From assembly GCF_025024155.1 (NCBI RefSeq), contig NW_026251794.1, positions 62,001 to 126,000 on the forward strand: a DNA stretch of 64,000 nucleotides, in the 5' to 3' direction. Made by a program: the position numbers and the translations under genes. Below the pieces are notes generated by a model. It was not told where the DNA came from. It saw nothing but the letters and a program-made list of their open reading frames with translations, and searched no databases. Source of the DNA: Gamsiella multidivaricata. Taxonomy: Eukaryota > Mortierellomycota > Mortierellomycetes > Mortierellales > Mortierellaceae. Positions 4,626 through 52,314 of this stretch are shown one piece after another (positions within the stretch are counted from its first letter, which is position 1; every line of letters begins with the position of its first letter).

Positions 4626-7600
4626 CTAGAACGACACTGGCGCATTGTCCGACGATCCTTCTTTTTTGCCGTGGTTAATGTTGCTGTTTACGGCTGGACC
4701 ACTGTTGCTGTAATCGTCGCGTCCCTGACCGCCGTAATAGTCGCCCGGTCGTCGACCATACCCTCCTCCTCCAAGACCTCCTGATCCTCCAGGTCCATTC
4801 GGTCCTCGACTCGGCCCATAGAACCCACCATTGTTGCCAGATGATCCAAGACCACTACTACCTCCAGGCGCGCCAGGCCCAAAATAGTCCCCGCGTCGGT
4901 CGAATCGATCACGACGCTCACGTTCTCGGTCTCTTTCAAGGTCCCGCTCGCGATCTCGGTCCCTGTCGCGATCTCTGTCTCGTGGGGGAGGAGGAGGGAG
5001 ACCGCCACGTGGGCCACGGTAGCCTCCGTAGCCTGGAGATTCCACGCCACCGTTCCCTCCATAGCTCCACTCGTCTCCATTCATGGATCGATGTCGTGCA
5101 CGCTCTTCTGCTTTGTAGTATTCGCGCGGGCCCGAGGGTGGCGATGGTCCTGTTGGAGAAGAAAGATGTCCAGGACGCTTAAATGATGACGAGTCCTCGT
5201 TATATCCGTAGTGACTGTTTGTACTGGAGTATCCACCATCGAATGGCGAAGACGGCATGCCCCCCGAAGTCAAAGAATGTTGCTTCTCTCTTGTAGGCGA
5301 GTTTAGTGATCCTGTAGGTGGCCGTTCAAGTCTGTCCGAGGGAGACCCAAAATATCGGGGAGACGATAGACGTGTGTCCCCCGACCTCGAGTCCAAACCT
5401 CGATGATCAGCACGGTAATTTCCACCCGTCGTCATGGACGCGGGCGCCGATGGGGGCGAGTGACCCCGTTGACTTCTGGGAGTTCTCCATCCTGCGGACC
5501 CTTGGCTCGTTGGCGGCGATGTTCCAAGCTTGGCTGCTGGACTCTTAAGATCAGAATTGACGGCCTGGGTCTCTTTCGGGCTCGTATTATTGAACTGAGG
5601 CCGCTGAGTAACAGGCGTTTTTCCCGGAGATTTCATCGCTGCAGAAGATCCTCCAATGGTTTGAAGCTGTGCATCGGATGGCGATGAGTTACGTGGTGGT
5701 GAGGAAGTCAAGTTCAACTTTGAGAATGGTGTTGGTCCCGCGGAAAGAGAAATAGGACTGAAGGGCTGAACTGGAAAGTAGTCGGCCGAGGACTGCGAGG
5801 CATCTTGGGCACGGGACGACAGCCCAATCAATGGTGTTGGCAAACTGGTGCCGACCTGGAAATAATCCCCTCTTGAAGTTGATTCCTGCTCCACAATCGC
5901 CTTTGACTGAGCCTGCGGCTCTTCGCTCATTTCCACATCCGCATTAACGTCCACAGATTCGGTTTGCAAATTACTCGACGTCTTCTTCGCAGCACTGCCG
6001 ACGACATCCTCGCCTGTGCCGGTGTTCCTGTCCTCGCTCTTCGATGTCTTTGGCGCTTCGAAACTAGGTGTGCCTGCAACACGCTGTGAAGCCTCCTGGC
6101 GTTTTTTCTGGTACTCTTGAAGGGACAACTTGACCTTGGGAATGGTCAACGCGGCCCCCATCGTCGTCTCGGATGGTTCGCCGACACGCATGGCAGCCAC
6201 GTCCAAGGTTTGGGACACTGATATCGGAGTGTCTTGGATCAGACATGGCTCACTCATCTCGACATCTACAATGTCTGCTGTCTTAGATGCAGAAGAGATA
6301 TCCATTGCTGTTGCGGCAGGTGCTACTTCACTTAGATCCTCAGACGGGGCAGGGGAGTTAGAGGCTAGTCGCTTTGCATGATAGGTCTCCAGGCTGAGCT
6401 TTTGAGGCGTCCGCGGTCTGTCCACAGGCTTGGGTCCAGCTACGGCCACAGGTGTTTCCTGAGCAACTGCAACTGATGTGATGATAATTGGCTGCTGAAT
6501 GGGCGTCGGTCGAGATACAGATTTGGTCTCAGCTCTTGGTTCGTGGAAATTCTCCTGTTGGTGGTTAGTTGCTGTCGAACTCGTCTCCGGCTTGACATCA
6601 TCGCGAAAAAGATTGAGAACATCTCCCTCGATCATGGAGGGCTGCTTGTATTCCAAGGGCGGGCTGGTTTTGGAAGAGATCGTGCAGGCAGACTGCTCCT
6701 TAGATCCACTGCCGGATTCTGTTCCAGGCAAAGGCACCGTAGACGTGAAAGTATCGATCGCATCCATGGGTTGGTTCAAATCGATAGTAGGCTCATCCTC
6801 CTCCAGCTTAAGATCAAAAACTTCCTCAGCCTTCTTTCTCATCTCCTCAGCCTTTTCGCGTGCTTCCTCCTCTGCCAGCGCCCTCTGCTTCAAGTATATC
6901 ATTTTCCAGATCTTTTTACAGGGAAGCACAGAGGGCTTCAACGAAGATGTTGGGAGAGTTTCCTTTGGAAGATTCTTTTCGCGCAATATCCGCCGACCAT
7001 TCTTGTGGTTCGTCTCCTCCTCCTCATCGCTGGTGTTCCCGACAATGCTCACGAAACCGCCCTCCACGGAGCTCGCGCCTGATAGGTTCTGCACTTCTTC
7101 GAGAGTGTCTAATGGTTGTGTAGTCGAGTGTCCTTCCGAAACAGGGTCTGCATTGCTGTGCTCAGCCATGCGCTTGCCGCGCGATGCTGCTGCATAGGGC
7201 TGCTTTTTCCCGGGCTGAATATGTACTTTCTTCGAGAGCTTGCTGGAGGAGTCTTTCATGTCAGAATCTGATGCTGCCGAAGACTGGGAAAATGTATCAG
7301 CTTCCATCTGCTCGCGGTCTCGTTTGCCTAATTGAAAGAGATTAAGAAAGCAACGAAATTTGGTTAGCAGGCTGTTGCAAAGTCGCTCGTACATATTTTG
7401 ACATTCATCGAGTCTTCCTTACCTTGCGACTGAATCGTTTGAACCCTCTTGTTGTTAATGGGTGCTGTTCGATCCAGGGAGAAGGGGTCCTTGCGCAAGG
7501 CCGCATTGTTCGAGTCGGAATCGATGCCACTGTCGCCGATCGAGATATCGTCGTCCTCTATGTTGCTGGTCTTTTTCCGAGGCGACTCTGCTCTTTGGCC

Positions 7601-9925
7601 AGCGTCTGCTGGCCGACTTTTGTCGCGTGGACGAGTCTTGGGTGAGGTGATCCCTGCTCGTTTCTGCTGCGAGGCGGTCGAGTCCTTTGCGCTAGGTTCC
7701 GTAGACTTTTGCTTTGCGTTGCCTGTTGACGATGCGTCTCGGTCCTCCATCTTCTTGATTAGCATCAGTGCCTGCTTCATTTCTCGCGGTGACATTTCCT
7801 GACTGGCAGTGGTAGAGCGTTTGGACGGCGAAACCTGTCTCTCTGTATTGGTCAGCTTCCGCCGCCGATGATCGTCTGATTCTGAATCCGAGTCCATGTC
7901 CTGCTCGACTCGAATAGGTCGCTGCTGCGGATGGCCTTCATGCTTCGACTTCTTAGATGAATTTTCAAGCTTGAATGCTTTGGGCGACTTGCGTCGCGGA
8001 CTGTTCTCAGCGACAGAGAGCTCCTCGTCGCTCGTGTCCTGATCCGCAGATCGCTTCCCTTCAGACCGTTCCCGCTGGCTCCCATATCGTTGCCGCAAGC
8101 TGTCAGCGGTTGCCTTTTTGGGTCGACTCCCTTTTGTCATAGCAGTCGAGTCATGATCGCGCGTACCCGATTCTGACACGCCATCCTTGAGCATTTGATG
8201 AAGGACGCATGTTTCTTTGTTTTCACAAGCACAATCCGTTTGAGCAAGCAGCGTTGATGCAACTAAATGCTTTGCCTTGCGGACCTCCTTCAAACTCCTC
8301 CTTGCGGCGCTATCTTTGGGCTTTTCTGTCGAGATCTTGATGGACTGGAGTGCGAGATGATCCTTGTTCCAGTTCCAATCAAGCATAATTTCCTGACCCT
8401 TGCCGATTGGGACTTTGGCAAACAGCCCCAGATGGACCGTCTGGTCCTGGACGCCCGGGACAACGATGCTCTTTACTTCTGTATTTGGGAAACACGACCT
8501 CCGGACGAAACGAGCATCGTTACCACTCCTTCTTGCGTCAACGACCAAGTTCAAGTGTGGGTGGAAGAGAACGAAGGGCTTAGGGGTCGCCAAGATGGAA
8601 TACTGATTAATCGGGTCCGCCTTGTAAGCCGACTTGAGGGAAACCTCGCCCTTGAACTCCATCATGAATCGTCCTGCGCCAATGTTGCTCTCTGCAAAGA
8701 GTCCATACTGCGGCGCCGGCGAGTGGGATGACTTTGAAGGCAAGATGTGCTTGACGACCGTCTTCATGAGTGGTCTTGCCAACGACTCTCGTTCCATTGA
8801 TACCACATTGGACGGGTCGGTAGGTGGGGCTGAAGATGTTGAACATGGTTGTGAACCGAATGTGTTCGTACTAGACATCTCTGGACTTTCCGGTATTGAT
8901 GGTGTTGAAGAGCCAGCGGCAGCGGCAGCGGCAGCATTGGAGGCGACGAGCTCTTGCAGCTTGACTCCCGAGGTCAGTGAGAGGGACCGCTTTCTTGATT
9001 GTGCTTGACGAAATTGTGCAATCACCTGCCGAAAGAGATCCTGTGCAGCCTTTGACGTGACTATATTAGTCTCAATAGGCGAGAACTCGAATTGGTATGC
9101 ATCCAGAGCATCTTCTTGGCCGTCGCTTTCCATGTCGAAGTCGTCGTCTTCGTTTGTGACTGAGGACATCCTGGAACCATTCGCTTGCCCGGTTGACTTG
9201 TGTTTGCTGGAAGACTGGTGATGTGAAGAGGATGTTGAGGTGCTGGTGTTTTGCGATTGTGGGTACTGCGGCGCCTGCTTGTTGCCACTGGAGCTTTTGC
9301 TCTTTTTGCCATTGACGTCTACTACGCTAGACGAGTTCTTGCCTTGGTAACCGTTGGTCCCGCTGTTACCAGTCGTGCCTTGAAGTGCGCCGATTTCCTT
9401 TGTGGTCGAGGACGAAGGGCCGGAGATGACACTTTGCTCAGCGATGCCGCTGCCTGCTGAGCCAAACTGCTTCCGGGGTCTCCCTACGTTTGGTTTTCTC
9501 CGTGAGGGGGACTTTTCTCGCTTACGCTCGGGAGTACCGATCCGCCTCCGCTGAATCTCATTAGCTCTCTTCCGATCTACAGGACGAGGACTGCAGAGTT
9601 CGCAGAGATACTTGTCTGGCACGTTGGACTGGAAGATTCCAACACAGACAGCATGTTGCCAGACAAAACAGCGCTCGCACTGGATGGTGAATCCGTCGTC
9701 ATCGGTATAGTTACAGATGCAACGGATAATACCTGCATCTTCATCGTCTTCCTCGTTTTCGCCTGATTCTTCATCCTCGTCCGCGATGTTGAGATTGCTG
9801 TGGCTGTTGCTGTGATTACTATTTGTACTGCTGCTGGCGTTGCTGTTCGCAAGGCGATTGATGGCCTTGTTGGCAAGGTTTGTGATGGATGGCGAGGGTG
9901 CCGTTGAGCTCAATTTGGCGGACAT
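4626..9925 (-). CDS. SET3: Set3/MLL5-type PHD-finger and SET-domain chromatin protein
   Basis: Set3-type proteins read methylated H3K4 with a PHD finger and scaffold histone deacetylase complexes; their SET domains are generally considered inactive as methyltransferases (family knowledge). Two exons (9925-7423 and 7327-4626) join in phase with a 95-bp intron to give 1734 residues. The C4HC3 PHD finger is complete: C69, C71, C83, C86, H91, C94, C108, C111. The SET domain follows at roughly residues 380-530 (YGLFAESNIGAGRFMMEFKG, then RFVRRSCFPNTEV, then GQEIMLDWNW). The rest is low-complexity and charged. Exon 2 contains a Lys/Glu-rich helix and repeated LSL-x-x-Y motifs (KLSLETY, KLSLQEY) as seen in Set3/MLL5 tails, then an RG/DR-rich, Gly-rich C-terminus. 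The catalytic state of the SET domain cannot be judged by eye. Confidence 0.9.
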
Positions 9926-20720: not shown

Positions 20721-22770
20721 GATACACGAATAGAGGACGAGACTTGCTATCCTCCATGATAATAATAATAAACAGCACTAACGCATTGTTCTAATAATTT
20801 GCACCATTCAGGTCATAAATTTTGCTGACCTTCCCATATGTTTTCCCATAATTGAATAAGAGTGATATATTTTAGAATAGATAAAATAGGGAGGTCGGTC
20901 ATATCCTGACTTTGTTGACCCCAGCTCTGACTTGCACAAATACGACCATTGTTTACTATGCATCAGTCGCACAATGCACACCATGGACCATAACTCTATT
21001 TCCACCAAGAGACCAAGAGACAACGGAGAAGGGTCTTCCACAAGTGCCTCTTTCTCCTCTTTCTCCTCTTTCTCTGCCAATGGAGTCGACATTGCACATG
21101 CTGGTCAAGGTGATGGTATGCTCTGACATTAGCCAGCTGAAACGCTACTCATCACACCGATCGACAACACCAACTTACTATTCCTTCTTCGTATCCACCG
21201 CTCGTATATTCATGTATATAGCTGCTGCCGCTTCGTGCCAGGCTTTCGGAGACTCAGTAGACACGCCAGAATATGCCTATGCATATAGCGATGTACTCGA
21301 GGGATCGTCTGGCAATATCTATGTAGAGCGCGACGACCCGACGTTTGCTGAACGCGTTGATCAAGAAGACGACACGGACGACGATACGACAGATGAGGAT
21401 ACAGACTACGGCTTAGACGACGTCGATGGCACCAGTGTTGCAATGAGTGGCGAGGAGGAGTGTCGGGAACAACTGCTGGATAGGCGTAGCAAGAGAAAGG
21501 CGGAACAAGCACCAGGGAAGGCGCGACCTGCTCGCAGGAGGGCAACAATGGAATCCAGCGACCAGACTGCACAGCAACTGTCCACATTCACTTCCAAGGC
21601 CTCCGTCCAGCAACACCCCTTTTCTGCCCCCAAGGCCTTCAGCACAATCAGCTCCTTCAAGGCCATTATGGTCAAGCAGTACAGGTTGATTTTTTTGCTT
21701 CTCACCCTCGAGTTCGCATATTGTCTTCTCGATGGACTTGTTGGGAGGTCCTGCCGTGATCGAGTACTGCTTTTTGTGTTCCCCTCCAATTTGAGCCCGC
21801 GTCCTAGCTGCTTTTTGGCTTCTTGGAATGCTTGGTACTCATCCTGCTGTATAGGGGATCTAACAACGAGCTTTGTAACTTCTACTATTAGTTATATTTA
21901 CAACAGGAGACGCCGCGCGATTAGGACTTCGGCGAGGGCGTGCTTCGGTCATTTACTGGTTCGCGGTGCAGGGTCTTCCTTTAGATCGGAATGAATTGAC
22001 ACAAAGGTAAAATAGACTAGACAGAGATAGAAGGAAATAAATATAGGGAGTTGTTTGGCTAAATGGTTCGAGCTAGGACTATGTTCCATTGAGAATGACT
22101 GGGGGTAGTTACAAGGTATTCACATATATGATGTCCGATGAAGTGAGAAGTCGCGACAATGAAGTCCACCCCTCAGGAGTCGTTGTATGGCAATGTTCGC
22201 TGATTAGGCCTCCATTGTACCTTTATAATACCGTTTCACGAGGGTAAGCCGATGACGGATGCTCAATAATGAGACGATCGGAGATCGGGGAAACGTTACA
22301 ATTGATAGTGCAAAGGTGGCGAATGATCAGGCTTGGCATTCTCTGTTGATTGTATCTCGTTGCGTGGGTTGCTGACGACGGCAGTCAGTACCTGTCGATG
22401 ATGCGGTGTTATCCGGACAATCTGGACGAATGCATACAAGATATATATGTGAAGAAGACTCTGGTTCAGGAACCAGACCGTTTATTCTTTTATTCTGGGA
22501 GCGGTGCTCTTCCTCGTAATTTAATAGCAAAAGTTCTCATAGGCTTTAGTCCTTTGAAGGTTGACCGCGCTACTTGACTGATTTCCCTATCCTCCATTGC
22601 ATCCCTAGCGACCTAACTAGATTTGCGCCTACCTGCGTACGTTGGAAACAGCGATGATGGGGATGCGGGTGGACATCTGTGTCAGGCCGTGGCAAAGCTA
22701 CTTGTATATCACTGATCGTGCTTCGTGCCAAGCGACTAGCGTCTATCAGTGTGATGGCTCTTTATCAAAG
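20721..22770. other. Gene-poor region left of the fusion nuclease
   Basis: About 2 kb. It contains a possible acidic ORF (described separately) and, from 21700 to 22770, short open frames without convincing codon or motif signal. No terminal inverted repeats were recognised by eye. Confidence 0.4.
20974..21684 (+). CDS. Possible small acidic/basic protein, unknown
   Basis: Low-confidence gene model. A first exon from ATG 20974 or 20983 encodes a short Ser/Phe-rich peptide. Skipping a candidate intron (donor GTATGC at 21116) leads to an open frame that runs at least from 21252 to 21684. That frame has a dense Asp/Thr cluster (EDDTDDDTTDEDTDYGLDD) followed by Lys/Arg-rich and Ser/Thr-rich segments. 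The frame stays open into a hydrophobic tail up to 21994, but a GT donor at 21685 would exclude it. Nothing was recognised by family. It could equally be the remains of a decayed gene. Confidence 0.28.
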
Positions 22771-22890
22771 CCTTTTGTTATTGTGGTAATGCCTTTCTTT
22801 ATTGTGGAAAGTCTTTGTTACGGTGGTAATACCTTTCTTTATTGTGGAAGGTCTTTTTTATTGCGGAAAGTCTTTTTTATTGTGGAAAAG
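22771..22890 (+). repeat. Six-unit 19-21 bp tandem array upstream of the FEN1-Fanzor gene
   Basis: Six head-to-tail degenerate units of the form CTTTNTTATTGTGGAAAGT, 19-21 bp each. Units 1 and 3 carry a GTGGTAAT variant; units 2 and 4 are nearly identical. The array ends 18 bp before a TATAAG element, so it occupies the proximal promoter of the fusion gene. Confidence 0.8.
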
Positions 22891-22908
22891 CAGACATTGC
22901 TTCTCGCC

Positions 22909-22914
22909 TATAAG
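22909..22914 (+). promoter_or_regulatory. TATA-like element of the FEN1-Fanzor gene
   Basis: TATAAG followed about 30 bp later by a pyrimidine-rich TCTCTTC/CATCATCC region, a plausible start site. The same TATAAG plus CT-rich layout precedes the superoxide dismutase gene at 37705. Confidence 0.55.
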
Positions 22915-23033
22915 TATTCTGCCACACACTTCACAGCTCTCTTCGTTCATCATCCTTTCTCCTCATCGCCCTTTGCCCGGAGTTCACTATCCATATACAC
23001 CTTCACGCTAGATACTATACGCCTGTAGAAAAG

Positions 23034-23123
23034 GTAATGTACCCTCCAAGCCTATCCTTCCATATCTTCAGCGTCCTTACGCGAGGGTTTCACTAACGCT
23101 GCTAAGCTTTCAACCCAACATAG
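23034..23123 (+). other. Predicted 5' UTR intron of the FEN1-Fanzor gene
   Basis: GTAATG donor after AAAAG, a CTAAC-type branch motif near 23093-23098, and a CATAG acceptor 10 bp before the ATG at 23134. Inferred from splice consensus only. Confidence 0.5.
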
Positions 23124-23133
23124 TGATCGCAGC

Positions 23134-26100
23134 ATGGGCATAAGAGGCCTTTACAGTACGCTGAAGAAGCGCGGTTTGGATCCAGTTGCCGCGGATCCTC
23201 AAGATTACCAGAACCAAGCTGTTGAGGTTGACCTCTTCGGCGCGTTTTATGGATCCCTCGTTCGCCAGATCACGGATGATTACGATCCAAGCAAGGTCCG
23301 AGCTGTCGGTCTCACGATGGCAGCGCGTTTGGCGAAGGACTTTACCCCTGCGCAATGTACGATTCACATCGATGGTGCCCCATCCCAACAGAAGCGGAAC
23401 GAGCACATCAGGCGAAAGAACAGACTGACAGCGGACCTCAAGAAGTTGCAGGCGGACTTGAAAGTCATGAGCACGAAGTCGTCGAACGGCCAATGGACCT
23501 CGAAGAGCGTGGTAACGAAGATCAAGAAGGGCCTCCGCGATGTATACAGATTTGATGCAGCAGCCAAGTAGACACCCCGGGATGCCTTACGAGAAAAGGG
23601 GTTTTCTGTCTGCACTTGCAGGACCGAGGCCGACACCTGCATTGCACGCACACTGACCATGGCAGCCGGTAGCTTCGTGGTGTCAGCAGATTCCGATCTG
23701 TTGATATATCCGTCGGTCACCAAGGTTTTGCGGCCAATCTTCCACGGCCTGGCCTATGCATTGTATACCAAGGAGAGTGTTACCAATGCACTTCACGTTC
23801 CCAGCGCAGACTATGTGACGTTGCTGGGCATCGTGTCCAAGAACGACTATACTGAGAACATTCCCGGCCTTGAAATAGTTCGCAACCTGGAGATCATCCG
23901 CGCTCTACCCCAGTCGCCCGATATCCGCCATATGCTCGATGCTTACAGATTCATGGCAGCCATCAAAACCCATGAGGTTATCGACCAGAGCCGATTCAAG
24001 CCATCGGAAGGCATCTTTTTGGATCTCGAGGAGAAAGTGCTCCAACTGCAGCCAGGAGATGAGGCCGCCGATGAGGACATGCTCGGCTTTGATTTCAACA
24101 GTGCAGCACCGCAGTTCCGGCACCTCAAGCTGCAGCGATTTGCCGTCGCTGCATATCAGCATGTGAGTAGAAGGTAATTTAAGTGCGACACCACTTCATT
24201 CACGCACGCGTTGTACAGATATCAAGTTCTATAACACCTTTTGCATGGCGATGTATGCGTATATTTACTAGTGCGGTTCCCTTGTACGTTGCGAGGAACT
24301 CAAAGCGGAACCAGTTCCGGCCGATCTTTTCAGACAAGAAATCGATCCTACCACGACAATCGATTGACTTCTCGACTGCCGTACCTCACGATCGCCCACA
24401 GCCAAAAGCAAAGCCCCCCGTCAAGACTCGGAAGGCGGTCGTGAAGAAGAAGAACAAGAAAAAGAGGAAGAAGGGGGCACTGCCGCGAAAACGGAAAGGG
24501 GTGGGCTCTGCCGACCCATCGAACCCACGACCCACTTCTGCAACTGCAGCGGACCGCCGCTTCCGCAAGCTGCATATAACCAAGGCACTCACTATGGGGA
24601 GTATCCAGGCCAACATGAAGCGAATGGATCAGGTCTCGGTTGCAGAAAGCAGGTTCCTTTCAGACAGGCTACGTTCGACGGTTGCGATCCTTAACGCAAT
24701 CCAGATGCATATGTACGAGGCTATTGCACTGGATATCGCGCGGCTTGTTCGTTTCAAGGACACAGCGACAGATGTGACACAGCGGAAGGAGGATATTTCA
24801 GACATTCTCGACAGCAAGGCCTTCTACTTTGCACTCAACACACTCTTGTGCAGTGGTCAAGAAGGACGAGGTTCTCAGGCTGTTCGAGTATCGGTTGCCC
24901 CTGCGCGCAGGATGAGCACTCGAAATACGCCGTTGGTTCCTGGCGTCCCGCAACCGCAAGCACAGGCACAACCACAACCACAACCACAACCACAACCAAC
25001 AGCCACCCATGCCCGACGTGTCTTTGATGCGTACACGACGCTCACCGGCTTTGTCCCCTTTCGCCAACGAGAACCAGAGATGTTCCCTTCGACGGTCCCG
25101 AGGCTTGCTGTTGCGGCAGTCTACAATGCAGTGCGAGTCCATTACTATGGCGCAAAGGTATATTAAAGAATGTGCAAGATGTATCCGTTGTGTTCCTTGC
25201 TTTTCGGAGCACTAGTGTTGACCATTAGCTCTTCAAATTTCTTTAATAGTTTTCCGAGAACGAAGAGCGCCCCGAAGCTGTCAATCCGATTGACTACTTC
25301 TTCGAAAAGAATACCGAGAAGCGCATGTTTGCAGACTTTGTCAAGGCAAAGTTTGCAGCTGGCTTCGTGTTCTTGTCAGAGGCGGACCTTGTCCATTTAT
25401 TCTATACAAGCAATACGACACGGCCGATTATAGTCCGATTGCTGAGCGGTACAGCAGCCCACATTGCGGAAGCCAAGGTTGTCGGCAAGAAAGGGATCCT
25501 CATCGAGAAGCTGCTATACAGACTGGACCCGGCGACACGCTTTGACGGGTATTACAAGAAGGTTTCGCTTCAGAGTGACAGACAGCACCACACAAGGTTC
25601 AAGCTTCGGGGCATCATCTGCACGAACGGATTGGTGCTGCATCTTCTTGCGCATGACACAACGACAACGCGACGCAGAGCACCCCGCCAAAGCATCAGGG
25701 GCGATGACGACGACGAGGATGTGACCCTGTTCCACGATGTTGACGGTGACTATGACCTCGACGACGCGTTCCTTGAAAGTGGAGGGGACGAATCTGGTAC
25801 AGATCCGGTCGCAGCTACGGCGGAACCCGCCAAGAAGAAACGCATCACGCTCCCGTCTTCGACACCAGAAAGTTCAAAGCAGCAGAGGCTGTCGATACAC
25901 CAATTGCCACCCACAGACCCTACTGCGACTGCTTCGTCCTCGTCCAGCTCAGAAGCTCTATCTAGTCCAACGTCAGGCGCAGATACGATCGATGTCACAC
26001 GCAACACCATCAACTGGAAGCGAAGTTCAAAGATCCTAGAAAACGTGGAGGTGCGCTTCAACTCTCCTGGCACTTGTCCACCAGGCGATACTGTGGTCAT

Positions 26101-26954
26101 CGGCATTGACCCGGGTGAGGTTTACACAATGACAGCGACAAGAATTGACCCCGCCTTACCTACGAAAAGAGAGTCTTTACGAATCCGCAGGGCATTCCTC
26201 TACAGGCCTTACATGCTCTTCAAGCGTCCCCTAGAAAAGCAGAAGGCCGCGGCACGCATTGATGTTCTTGAGGCAAGACTGCCCTCATTTGCCGCGGAGA
26301 AGATCGAAGAATATCTGGAGGAGTCTGGCACGGATGGCACCGCCGCGCCCACCACGAGAGTCCGCCTTTTTAACTTTTACAACAGTCAGTGGATGCTAAG
26401 GAAGCGCTGGGATCTTCAAAAGGCTAAACAGGCAATGTATGACTACGCAGTTGCGGCCTTGCTTGACCTTGCCGTTAGCAAGGACTTTGTTGGCCAGCCG
26501 CTGAGCTCGCAGGATGGTGTAAAAGTAGTGTTTGCGATAAAATTGGGCTCCTTTAATTCGCAAACTGGCCTGCCAAGCAAGCATAGCGCACTCGAGAAGA
26601 AATTTGTCGACAAGGTAAGAAGAAGGAAAAAAAAAAAAAAAGAAAAGGGTGGCATACCATCTCTCATCCGCACTGCAACTTTTTCTCATCTGTTTATTTG
26701 TTCCTTGATGCTGCTGATAGGCAAAGGCTATGGGACACACTGTGGTCGGGGTGCACGAGTACTACACCAGTGCTCGGTGCCCTCGTGACCAGTGTATGGC
26801 GTTCTTGGAGTCCGACAAGAGGCGGTCAAAGTACTGCCGAAGCTGTCAAATGTACTTTGGTCGCGATATTGTCGGCTCTGAGAACATTGCCACCGTGTGT
26901 CTGTCGCAAATCCAGAACCAGTGCCGGCCTGCCAAGTTCATGCCATCAATATAA
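23134..26954 (+). CDS. Fusion of FEN1/XPG-type nuclease and Fanzor (TnpB-like) RNA-guided nuclease
   Basis: Five exons join in phase: 23134-23567, 23622-24162, 24219-25157, 25250-26614, 26721-26954 (1170 residues). Residues 1-325 match the XPG-N/XPG-I fold: MGIRGL start, VEVDLFGAFYGS (D33), TIHIDGAPSQQKR (D80), TEADTCIAR (E147, D149), VVSADSDLLIYP (D168, D170) and KNDYTENIPGLE (D220). These are the seven acidic metal ligands of FEN1/EXO1 enzymes, which cut 5' flaps. Residues about 388-418 are a Lys/Arg-rich probable nuclear signal. The C-terminus is Fanzor/TnpB-like: RuvC-I VVIGIDPGEVYTM (D925), VHEYYTSARCP (E1106), zinc finger C1113/C1118/C1132/C1135, and RuvC-III GRDIVGSENIA (D1142). Fanzors are reprogrammable, guide-RNA-directed nucleases often found in transposons. 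The middle (about 420-900) is unrecognised. Exon 2/3 has an alternative junction (24173/24272), also in frame. RNA-guided activity is inferred. Confidence 0.85.
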
Positions 26955-27040
26955 TCATAGGGGGCCGGAACCCTCTTTCAAAATTTGTAAGTTCAACATA
27001 CAAAAAATAACGTGCATGAACACCCAACCCATTCTGAATT

Positions 27041-27828
27041 CTAACCAGTCACTTTTTTACTTGATTTGGGTGATTTCTGGTAGACAGATACTGTAGATGA
27101 ATACCACGGCCATTTGATGTCCATTGTATTCTCTGCACTTGCTCCCCATCCATCCTTGTAGTGGTCGATTATCTCATCTTCCTTGCAGTACGCTATCGGA
27201 TATTCGGGTACCTCAAACCAACCTGGTCTAGTCCTCACTTGCAGCCCTTCTACAAGTCGTCACTTCATCTCGGACGATGTTTTCGACCAGGTGTGTGCCG
27301 CCTGCTGATCCGGTACTGTCCCTCTACTTCCTCCACCACCCAGTGGTGTCTCACCCAATATGTCCTCAAAATAAATAAATATGGATTCCCATCCTAGGTT
27401 TGACAAGGTCTTTGATTCCTCACAAGGGTTCGATTGAGGCATGAAAAGGGTTTCCCATATCATTATCCCGGCAAGGGATATGGACAAAGTTTTTATGCCA
27501 CCAACATGGACGCTGAGGGCAACAGCACTTCCAGTACCACTCACTTTTCAAAGCTTAGTCGTACCTGGGATTGGCTGTTGAGCACCTGCTTTATCTGTCT
27601 TCTTCACTCATGACATGTGGCGAATATTTGCCTGGTGCGGTCTTGTGTCTTGAATATGGTCCTCTGGCTCTTTCCCCTTTGGGTGAACAAAGATTGTGCC
27701 ACTAAATTGGCGAAGTCCAAGGCTCGAATTTCATTGGCTGGTGGTCCTTGAATGGATTTCCGGATTAAAGGGTTCATTCCGGACCAGACCTCTTCGTCAA
27801 CTCTCTCCCCCCATTCTTTTTTACTCAC
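27041..27828 (-). pseudogene. Degenerate minus-strand coding-like sequence, unknown
   Basis: Three minus-strand open stretches (27828-27604, 27544-27260 and 27238-27041) have protein-like composition, for example RKSIQGPPANEIRALDFANL and GWFEVPEYPIAYCKEDEIID. The last two are in the same frame separated by a single TGA near 27257, with no credible intron. No ATG start or consistent splice model was found. I read this as a decayed gene of unknown family; an intact gene with unusual introns cannot be excluded. Confidence 0.35.
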
Positions 27829-27855
27829 TTACACCCACGCACAATCACACAATTC

Positions 27856-28011
<156 letters not shown>

Positions 28012-28020
28012 CTGCACATC

Positions 28021-28886
28021 ATGTCGTTGGCAGCCAAGATTGTCCAAGCAGCAGCTCCACGGATCCCTCGTCCTCGCAAAGCTGTTCTCACTCTTGTACG
28101 TTCTCCTCTTGCTTTGCAAGTTATGCCGCACCATTACAGCAGTGCCTGAAAAACTGTCCTGTACGGATTGCTAACGAGCACTCTCTTATCTTTTCCTCTT
28201 CCCTTCCAACTTGTCCGTATGACACCGATTCTTTTCTTTCGTTTGATTACACCTCGATTCAACCCGGCATCAAATTGTCACCATGATCTCATCAACTGCG
28301 CTGTTTGTATTTTCGCATTTCGGACATTTCGGCTTTGACATATATGTCACCCCATCCCCCAACTAAAAATATTTTTAATACTTTTTTCTCGGACCACGGA
28401 TACTTTTCGTGGAATCGCCCCCTGGATCAACGCGGGCATTGTCACTCGCCGATATCTTGCTCCGTGCGAACAAAACCAGACGCCCGCTGCGGTCACTCGT
28501 CTGCGTACCCTGACAGACGGACCGGAGCCGAAGGTCGTCCGTGTCGGAATCCGCACCAAGGGTTGTTCTGGCCAGCAATACGATCTCCAGTACACCACCA
28601 AGAAGGAGAAGTTCGATGAGGAAATCAAGCAGGATGGTATGGATAGCTTGTACTTGAGACACTGACTGGCTGGTACTTTCCTCCTGGTTCTCTAACGCCT
28701 TTTTGGTTTTATTGGTTTTTTATTTTCGCCACTTTAGGTGTAACGGTGCTTGTGGACAACAAGGCATTGCTCTCAGTGCTTGGATCAGAGATGGACTATG
28801 TCGAGGACAAGCTGTCAGCTCAATTTGTCTTCAACAATCCCAACGTTAAGGAGTCGTGCGGATGCGGCATGAGTTTCATGACGTAG
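28021..28886 (+). CDS. ISA1: Iron-sulfur cluster assembly protein Isa1 (A-type carrier, mitochondrial)
   Basis: Isa1/ISCA1 acts with Isa2 and Iba57 in mitochondrial [4Fe-4S] cluster maturation (family knowledge). Three exons (28021-28095, 28480-28636, 28738-28886) join in phase for 126 residues. Family features are RKAVLTLTPAAVTRLRTL, the first cluster ligand in KGCSGQQYDL (C54), VLVDNKALLSVLGSEMDYV, FNNPNVKESCGCGMSF with C118 and C120, and the family end shortly after. All three conserved cysteines are present. The first 20 residues are Arg/Lys/Ala-rich without acids, consistent with a short mitochondrial presequence. The 384-bp first intron is large for this window. The start follows directly on a TC/AC microsatellite. 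Confidence 0.96.
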
Positions 28887-29473: not shown

Positions 29474-31446
29474 ATGCTGCGACACATAAGAGCTGTTCCT
29501 CTCAGGTGCAAACCGACCTCAGGGCTTTGCTCAAGGCCAGCAGCGCATGGTCTCCGTCCTGTGGCGCACTGCACTGCGAAGCCAAACTTCTCTCTCGCAA
29601 CAGAACACCAGCAACCTCTCTCGACCTCAAGTCGACTCTGGAAAGCAGTTGACGCGTCAGCGTCAGCACCAGCGGCCCCACATCCCGTCCCAGCCTTGAT
29701 TCTCAAACCCTATATCAATTTCAAGGCTCTGACAAACCCCAAAAAAGCGGAAGCCATGGCCGCCAATATCAAGTATCGCAATTTGCCTGACTCGATCTCG
29801 GTTGCCGCTGTGAGCGAGCTGTACAGGACAGTGATGGAGAAGACGCAGCAACTGGACAAGGCCCGAGCAGAACGGAATCGGATCGCAGCAGAGATGAAGG
29901 CGCTATTTAGTGGCGGGTCGCCCAAAGGTAAAAAGAAGAAGCAAGCAGTAGCAGAGACTTCAGTATCAACATCAGACGACGTGGCGTCTGCAGTATCAAC
30001 GGAGATATCACATGAGGCAAAAGAGCAGCGACGACAGGAGCTGGTGGAGCGCGGTAGGGTTCTCAAGGAAGACATTCATGCGCAGGAAGCTGACCTCACA
30101 GCGCTGGAGACACATTTGTACGATCAAGCGGTCATGATCCCCAACACTACTCACCCAACTACACCTATTGGGCCCGAGTCTGAGGCGCAGCTGGTTCGTG
30201 TGCGTGGATTGCCTCGGTTGAACGTTGGCGTCAAGGCCCATGCACATCCGGGATTCGATAACTTGGACTCAGGCAGCGAAGAAGTCATGGCGCTCATGGG
30301 CAATGTGTCGGACTTCCCTCTGCTGGACCATGTCACACTTGCTAAGCAATTAGACCTGGTAGATTTCGAGTCGGCGACGGCTGCCACGGGAGCAAGGTGG
30401 TACTATCTTAAGAATGAGGCCGCGCTTTTGGAGCTGGCATTGATCCAATTTGCGACCCAGCGCGCAGTCAAGGCTGGATTCATGCCTGTGATCACGCCAG
30501 ATGTGGTTCGCCCAGAAGTCGTCCAGGCGTGTGGATTCCAGCCCCGAGATGAAGCCTCGCAGACGTATTGGGTGTCAACAGTCGCGCCTGGTTCCAGCAG
30601 GGCAGCAACACCAGAGGGAGCACACCATCACCAGCACTCGGCACTGTGCCTTGTTGCGACTGCGGAGATTGCGTTGGCGGGAATGAACCTGAACAAGGTA
30701 GTGGAAGAGAGTCAGTTGCCAATTAAAATGGCTGGATTCGGAAGGGCGTTCAGGGCCGAGGCTGGTTCAAGAGGCGCGGAGGTCAAGGGGTTGTATCGCG
30801 TCCATCAATTCAGCAAAGTAGAATTGTTTGTGCTATCGAAAGCGGATCGAGGTGAGAGCGATCGAATTCTGGAGGAGATTCGACAGTTCCAGGAGGACAT
30901 TTTTGAGGAGCTTGGACTCTGCTACAGGTACTGCATCATCTTTTTCCCCATTGCTGTATTGAATCAACTTTCTTCGGGCATGCTAACCCGTATCTTTTTT
31001 AATACATGTTATATGATAGGGTCCTGGACATGCCTACTGAAGAGTTAGGCGCGAGCGCATACAAAAAGTACGATATTGAGGCATGGATGCCTGGAAGGAA
31101 CAGCTGGGGCGAGATCTCATCGACATCGAACTGCACGGATTACCAGTCTCGACGACTCAACATCCGCTACAGGACTACTAAGATCTTGAACCGCCCAGAG
31201 GCATCATCGTCATCAATATCTGGAGAAGATGAGACATTGACATCTTCCGCAGGCTCCAATTCCTACATGACGACTGAGTTTGTGCACACGTTGAATGGAA
31301 CGGCCATGGCAATCCCCAGAATCATTGTCGCGCTGCTAGAGACCTATCAGCAACAGGATGGATCAGTCCGCTTGCCCCAGTGTCTCTGGCCATTCATGGC
31401 GGGCATTAAAAAGATTACCCCCAAGGACGACAGCACATATCCATAG
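29474..31446 (+). CDS. SARS2: Seryl-tRNA synthetase, mitochondrial
   Basis: Charges mitochondrial tRNA-Ser with serine. Two exons (29474-30927, 31020-31446) join in phase for 626 residues. The first about 70 residues are Arg/Ser/Ala-rich without acids, a mitochondrial presequence. An N-terminal coiled-coil arm follows (about residues 110-225), interrupted by a Lys/Ser-rich insert. The class II core shows the ATTIG-like [15 protein letters not shown], motif 2 ([19 protein letters not shown], then [11 protein letters not shown]), and the motif 3 region [40 protein letters not shown] is the signature serine/tRNA segment. A His/Gly-rich insert near residue 375 (GAHHHQHS) is a lineage feature. The N-terminal extension distinguishes it from the cytosolic enzyme. 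Confidence 0.95.

Positions 31447-50112: not shown

Positions 50113-52314
<2,202 letters not shown>

Follow-up and report, generated by a model that had tools for sequence, protein, structure and literature searches.

The gene and its two halves

The stretch of DNA analysed here (the window) comprises 64,000 nucleotides of the fungus Gamsiella multidivaricata (contig NW_026251794.1; C166:62001-126000 in a source genome of 37.5 Mb and 180 contigs) and carries on its forward strand a gene whose predicted product joins a 5' nuclease of the EXO1/FEN1/XPG family to a Fanzor (TnpB-like) nuclease, within a repeated element. An earlier note, made from the letters alone, had proposed such a fusion; all the motifs that it quoted are found in the window DNA, and its five-exon model does translate into 1170 residues with no stop, but two of its introns could not be kept. 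The GT donor of the first (23568-23621) exists only in the window copy and in 0 of the 10 other aligned copies; the in-frame TAG with which this supposed intron begins in the window copy (codon 146, 23569-23571) is a sense codon in all ten; and the predicted relatives P0001 and P0002 have residues equivalent to the stretch (VCTCRTEAD in the window, VCSCRTEAD in P0001). On these grounds this intron was rejected. The second was misplaced: it is instead an intron at 24174-24271 (GTAATT..TACTAG) that brings back the alignment to P0001, its GT donor being present in all 11 copies and its TAG acceptor in 9 of them. The alignment of full-length copies includes the window copy (n=11) and excludes L041, L043, L051 and L053, which are interrupted, cut or partial.

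The revised model consists of 1174 codons and a stop, with one internal TAG at codon 146, and the intactness assumed earlier for this copy is not supported. Exon 1 (23134..24173) encodes the XPG half (residues 1 to about 300) and contains the TAG; exon 2 (24272..25157) encodes a lysine-rich linker (KKKNKKKRKK, 24444-24473) and a conserved middle region that aligns with P0001-P0007; exon 3 (25250..26614, formerly exon 4) continues the middle region and holds the RuvC-I DPG motif (D codon 26108-26110); and exon 4 (26721..26954, formerly exon 5) encodes the alternative RuvC glutamate (26757-26759), the zinc finger and the RuvC-III aspartate (26865-26867). Retention of the intron 24174-24271 would lead to an in-frame TAA and an XPG-only protein of about 348 residues.

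The relationship of the N-terminal half to the EXO1/FEN1/XPG family exceeds chance, as judged from profiles, relatives and fold. Pfam gave no XPG match on the window protein at E<=5, and XPG_N is absent from the five families matched by 44 relatives at E<=0.001; at the same threshold, XPG_I was matched by 15 and Pox_G5 (PF04599) by 4 of these 44. All 32 matches of the family profile in the Protein Data Bank (PDB) were of XPG-region type (best E 2.2e-6), and the fold predicted for P0016 matches the XPG-type catalytic core from residue 2 onward. The window protein has all seven acidic positions of the two-metal core (23230..23847, forward strand; codons of D33, D80, E165, D167, D186, D188 and D238 starting at 23230, 23371, 23626, 23632, 23689, 23695 and 23845), which we take to be the equivalents of the FEN1 catalytic residues. 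The TEAD, DSD and NDY motifs each occur in 38 of the 44 relatives, counted by regular expression with some chance matches and some incomplete proteins. Beyond residue 919 the P0016 model scores below 60 for the most part, and the protein itself ends short of TNB, which leaves sequence as the basis for the Fanzor half; fold searches with this model returned mainly XPG-type matches, and their lack of Fanzor rows carries no meaning. A structure prediction for P0001 (7 sequences; mean pLDDT 44) was discarded.

The C-terminal half likewise proved related to the Fanzor/TnpB type beyond chance, by Pfam, by profile comparison with the PDB and by motifs. The PF07282 (TNB) match lies at 26585..26888 on the forward strand and is interrupted by the intron 26615-26720; hmmscan gives it E 2.9e-8 and 34.2 bits, above the cut-off of 26.3. 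A profile of six C-termini gave 10 PDB matches at E<=1, all of TnpB, Fanzor or Cas12 type, headed by L79 (4.3e-6) and the Spizellomyces Fanzor (4.9e-6). The window protein contains IDPGE at 928 and HEYYTSARC at 1109, that is, the RuvC-I DPG and a glutamate six residues before the zinc finger; the available text of PMC10711439 gives DPG with an alternative glutamate as the Fanzor signature. The retrieval pattern described there, a search filter and not a definition, asks for 120-160 residues from DPG to E followed by CxxC..CxxC..D. The present family falls outside it, with 178 residues in P0001 and P0006 and 184-202 in three others, and with a first cysteine pair of CxxxxC, unlike CxxC.

Relatives, gene pairs and conservation

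The fusion recurs in Mortierellomycota, where other fungi have predicted proteins extending over both halves. With these proteins, and with profiles that place each half in its family, the family as a whole withstands the refuting conditions set in the earlier note. P0001 aligns to residues 1-1173 of the window protein, and P0002-P0007 (Mortierella alpina, M. antarctica) align over large parts of it; P0005 lacks the zinc-finger end, and P0004 and P0007 begin inside XPG-I. A query joined from locus L008, of a diverged subfamily, added 37 relatives, 34 of them from eight genera (Podila, Entomortierella, Mortierella, Dissophora, Haplosporangium, Benniella, Linnemannia and Gamsiella); P0022, from a 2 kb Apophysomyces contig, has no XPG motif and is possibly contamination. 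TNB was matched by 8 of the 44 relatives at E<=0.001, and many predicted relatives stop before this domain. Alignments and motifs place XPG-I motifs and TNB within one predicted protein in P0001, P0002, P0003, P0006 and P0043. Among the proteins with individual Pfam tables, no single one exceeds the cut-offs for both XPG_I and TNB, so it is from these alignments and motifs that single proteins are read as fusions. The linker between the halves is conserved across species, and the Mortierellaceae fusion appears to comprise at least two diverged subfamilies. In viral contigs, two peptide patterns for each of A1 and A5 gave 31 and 39 pattern stretches, none of them confirmed, and no relative was found in the phage records searched.

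The two domains are also paired across the source genome. We compared 109 PF07282 matches with 105 XPG matches (102 + 3) merged into 92 loci: for 54 of the 109, an XPG locus lies 0.3-5.5 kb upstream on the same strand, at 2.7-3.4 kb in 43 of the 54, compared with 2 pairs downstream on the same strand, 3 upstream on the opposite strand and 3 downstream on the opposite strand. Taking the XPG queries from known paired loci biases these counts toward paired relatives, not toward a strand or distance preference. The window family accounts for 12 of the 54 pairs, and one pair, on C25, spans different elements. Five weak XPG_I matches (on C159, C115, C124, C122 and C96), all above the cut-off, are each followed on their own strand, after about 3 kb, by a TNB match that also exceeds its cut-off. 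Another 38 XPG loci have no TNB partner, some of them resembling host genes (for instance the best XPG_I match, on C16). Ten TNB matches share an identical score of 47.2 bits (C105, C33, C62, C88, C121, C131, C12, C93, C140, C134), with an XPG locus upstream in three (C93, C140, C134); these loci could represent a family with internally deleted copies.

Pooled over 11 copies (55 pairs, on the exons of the earlier note), the ratio of nonsynonymous to synonymous substitution (dN/dS) is 0.51, with 0.44 in the XPG and RuvC/TNB parts and 0.56-0.57 between them. This is weak evidence, since past constraint is mixed with decay and introns match among the copies as closely as exons do; the motifs kept at 30-40% between-species identity are a stronger sign of constraint.

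Sequence and predicted fold show what each half is, in which order the halves are fused, that the gene is repeated and that it occurs in several Mortierellaceae genera. As far as sequences and models can tell, the presence of an EXO1/FEN1/XPG module and a Fanzor-type module in one Mortierellomycota polypeptide is close to certain as a matter of identity.

The repeated element around the gene

The gene sits in a repeated element at 20797..27093 (forward strand), delimited by BLAST of 15 fetched copies, which the earlier note had overlooked. Its right end is sharp at 27093 (..GTAGACAGATACTG, then TA); its left end is less certain, about 12 terminal bases of other copies being missing. A search of the genome with the window protein gave 77 pieces grouped into at least 15 loci, a lower bound from scoring 40 of 273 candidates; all 15 were fetched with their flanks. 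Thirteen copies match one right terminus, followed by TA in 12, and five left ends were recognised, preceded by TA in three. Identity among copies drops from 0.93-0.94 in exons to 0.37 past the right end, and near position 21843 some copies join different sequence. Judged from sequence, the CAGT..ACTG-like ends and the repetition fit a transposable element; a TA duplication at the ends is not proven. Between the stop codon and the right end lies a 3' noncoding stretch (26955..27093, forward strand), common to the copies, which is the expected place of an omega-RNA (candidate only). Rfam gave no match at gathering scores and ARAGORN none over the whole window.

According to Pfam, host-type genes flank the window copy: a SET/PHD protein (7367-9925, reverse strand), seryl-tRNA synthetase (29474-31045, forward) and TIP49 (51397-52311, forward). 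Downstream of the element, a long CT/GA dinucleotide run (27825-28091) creates open reading frames (ORFs) of Leu-Ser and Arg-Glu repeats. The copies L047 and L048 have about 2.9 kb of right flank in common and different left flanks, which would fit either the duplication of a segment or insertions into the same repeat. Element ends also occur with no nearby gene match (a right end at C99:392661-392735 and six left ends on C1, C145, C135, C57 and C9); such ends are possibly non-autonomous remnants, like the Fanzor ghost loci. At L005, L007 and L008, ORFs with a KWRHSHD/TWKHNHD-like motif lie on the minus strand upstream of the XPG ORF, divergent to the fusion gene. A FAR1/MULE-type DNA-binding identity was suggested by eye only; two of these ORFs scanned against Pfam gave no match, and the assignment is not claimed.

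Proposed guided cutting and resection, and known systems

The reading that we rate highest, at a probability of roughly 0.45 with the identity of the halves included, is that the window gene is a decayed copy from a probably mobile fungal element whose relatives encode a 5' nuclease-Fanzor fusion that would both make a guided cut and resect it. An RNA from the element's right end would bring the Fanzor half to a matching site, either the donor site left empty or a homologue that lacks the insertion, for cutting. At the break, the tethered 5' nuclease would then degrade the 5' strand and so expose a 3' tail; repair would thereby be committed to homologous recombination, which would copy the element back to its donor site or into the homologue. 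EXO1 resects the 5' strands of broken DNA ends. In its available text, PMC10432273 raises cut-and-copy for Fanzors and describes 5' overhangs for SpuFz1 and ghost loci without a protein, and PMC10572186 reports that knock-in was raised by truncated Exo1 on the N-terminus of Cas9. It is on account of these precedents that guided cutting with resection is rated likeliest. Somewhat more tentatively, Mortierellaceae elements may have evolved a self-contained cut-and-resect enzyme, represented in at least two diverged subfamilies, that would steer guided breaks toward homologous copying of the element and would be nature's equivalent of Cas9-Exo1.

Several observations weigh against this reading. 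Not one of the 11 aligned full-length copies is free of stops and frame shifts. In the window copy the TAG is the sole lesion; unless splicing removes the stretch around it or translation reads through it, this copy is therefore probably a pseudogene. No transposase was found in the four left-part ORFs of the window copy that were scanned, and this copy may be non-autonomous. For 55 of the 109 TNB matches no XPG locus was found upstream, so the XPG module may be dispensable or these copies truncated. Five proteins of the second subfamily seem to lack DPG and to have LDGG/LDAG instead (assigned by eye). The stretch 26955..27093 is not more conserved than the rest of the element, and RNA folding of the right end in nine copies (L042 and L052 dropped) gave z of -0.4 to -2.4, not above controls (0.05, -0.7, -5.3, -13.6).

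The same fusion might use its 5' nuclease otherwise, to trim flaps at the element ends in transposition, the strand displaced where the guided cut is made, or a guide-RNA precursor; we hold this somewhat unlikely, and nothing here sets it apart from resection. That the XPG module merely binds structures or acts as a scaffold without catalysis is improbable: catalytically dead members of the superfamily exist, such as Mkt1, but the window protein retains all seven acidic positions and the three motifs are widespread among the relatives. Still less probable is that XPG and Fanzor are two adjacent genes of one element. The in-frame TAA that follows the XPG half when the intron 24174-24271 is kept, and the many predicted relatives ending before TNB, would suit such an arrangement, against which stand the five proteins combining XPG-I motifs with TNB and the conservation of both linker and splice sites. 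A domesticated host gene, finally, is disfavoured as very improbable; the window copy does lie among host-type genes, but the family occupies at least 15 loci with common right ends, most of them decaying.

The joining of a 5' nuclease to the guided nuclease and its maintenance over several genera suggest that processing of the cut end belongs to the Fanzor's job for the element; the cut-and-copy idea becomes testable by inactivating each half separately, and natural single-protein editors favouring homology-directed repair are a possible yield.

A Tc1/mariner-type element would have CAGT-like ends flanked by a duplicated TA and would encode a DDE transposase; here TA stands after 12 of 13 right ends and before 3 of 5 left ends, and no such enzyme turned up in the four ORFs scanned in the window copy. 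Academ elements carry an XPG nuclease. The viral Poxvirus G5 family, matched by four of the relatives, is FEN1-like and, to our knowledge, has no Fanzor half. Compared with the EXO1, FEN1 and XPG (RAD2) 5' nucleases, the window family is fused to a Fanzor, repeated in the genome, only about 15% identical and gives no Pfam XPG_N match. It resembles Fanzors as described in the available texts (SpuFz1 of Spizellomyces punctatus, and the TnpB-like L79; PMC10711439, PMC10432273) in its C-terminal RuvC and zinc finger, its DPG, its alternative glutamate and its residence in a repeated fungal element; it differs in adding a whole EXO1/FEN1-type nuclease at the N-terminus, in RuvC spacing and in the first cysteine pair. 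The main texts of PMC10432273 and PMC10711439 do not mention XPG or flap/FEN1, that of PMC3627910 neither XPG nor FEN1, and that of PMC11423790 neither XPG nor flap. No paper linking Fanzor or TnpB with Mortierella or Mortierellaceae was found in the literature covered, nor any description of the XPG-Fanzor architecture, which agrees with the novelty suggested earlier (subscription papers and preprints outside PMC lay beyond this coverage). For large DNA viruses, a sentence of PMC11071296 names 'Fanzor flap endonuclease homologs (Fendons)', coupling both names and giving no architecture, and from that one sentence it cannot be told whether these are the same as the Mortierellaceae fusion. A further parallel is the engineered Cas9-Exo1 (Cas9-HR; PMC10572186, available text), which likewise places a 5' nuclease N-terminal to an RNA-guided nuclease; whereas Cas9-HR is artificial, the fungal fusion is natural and has a Fanzor in place of Cas9.
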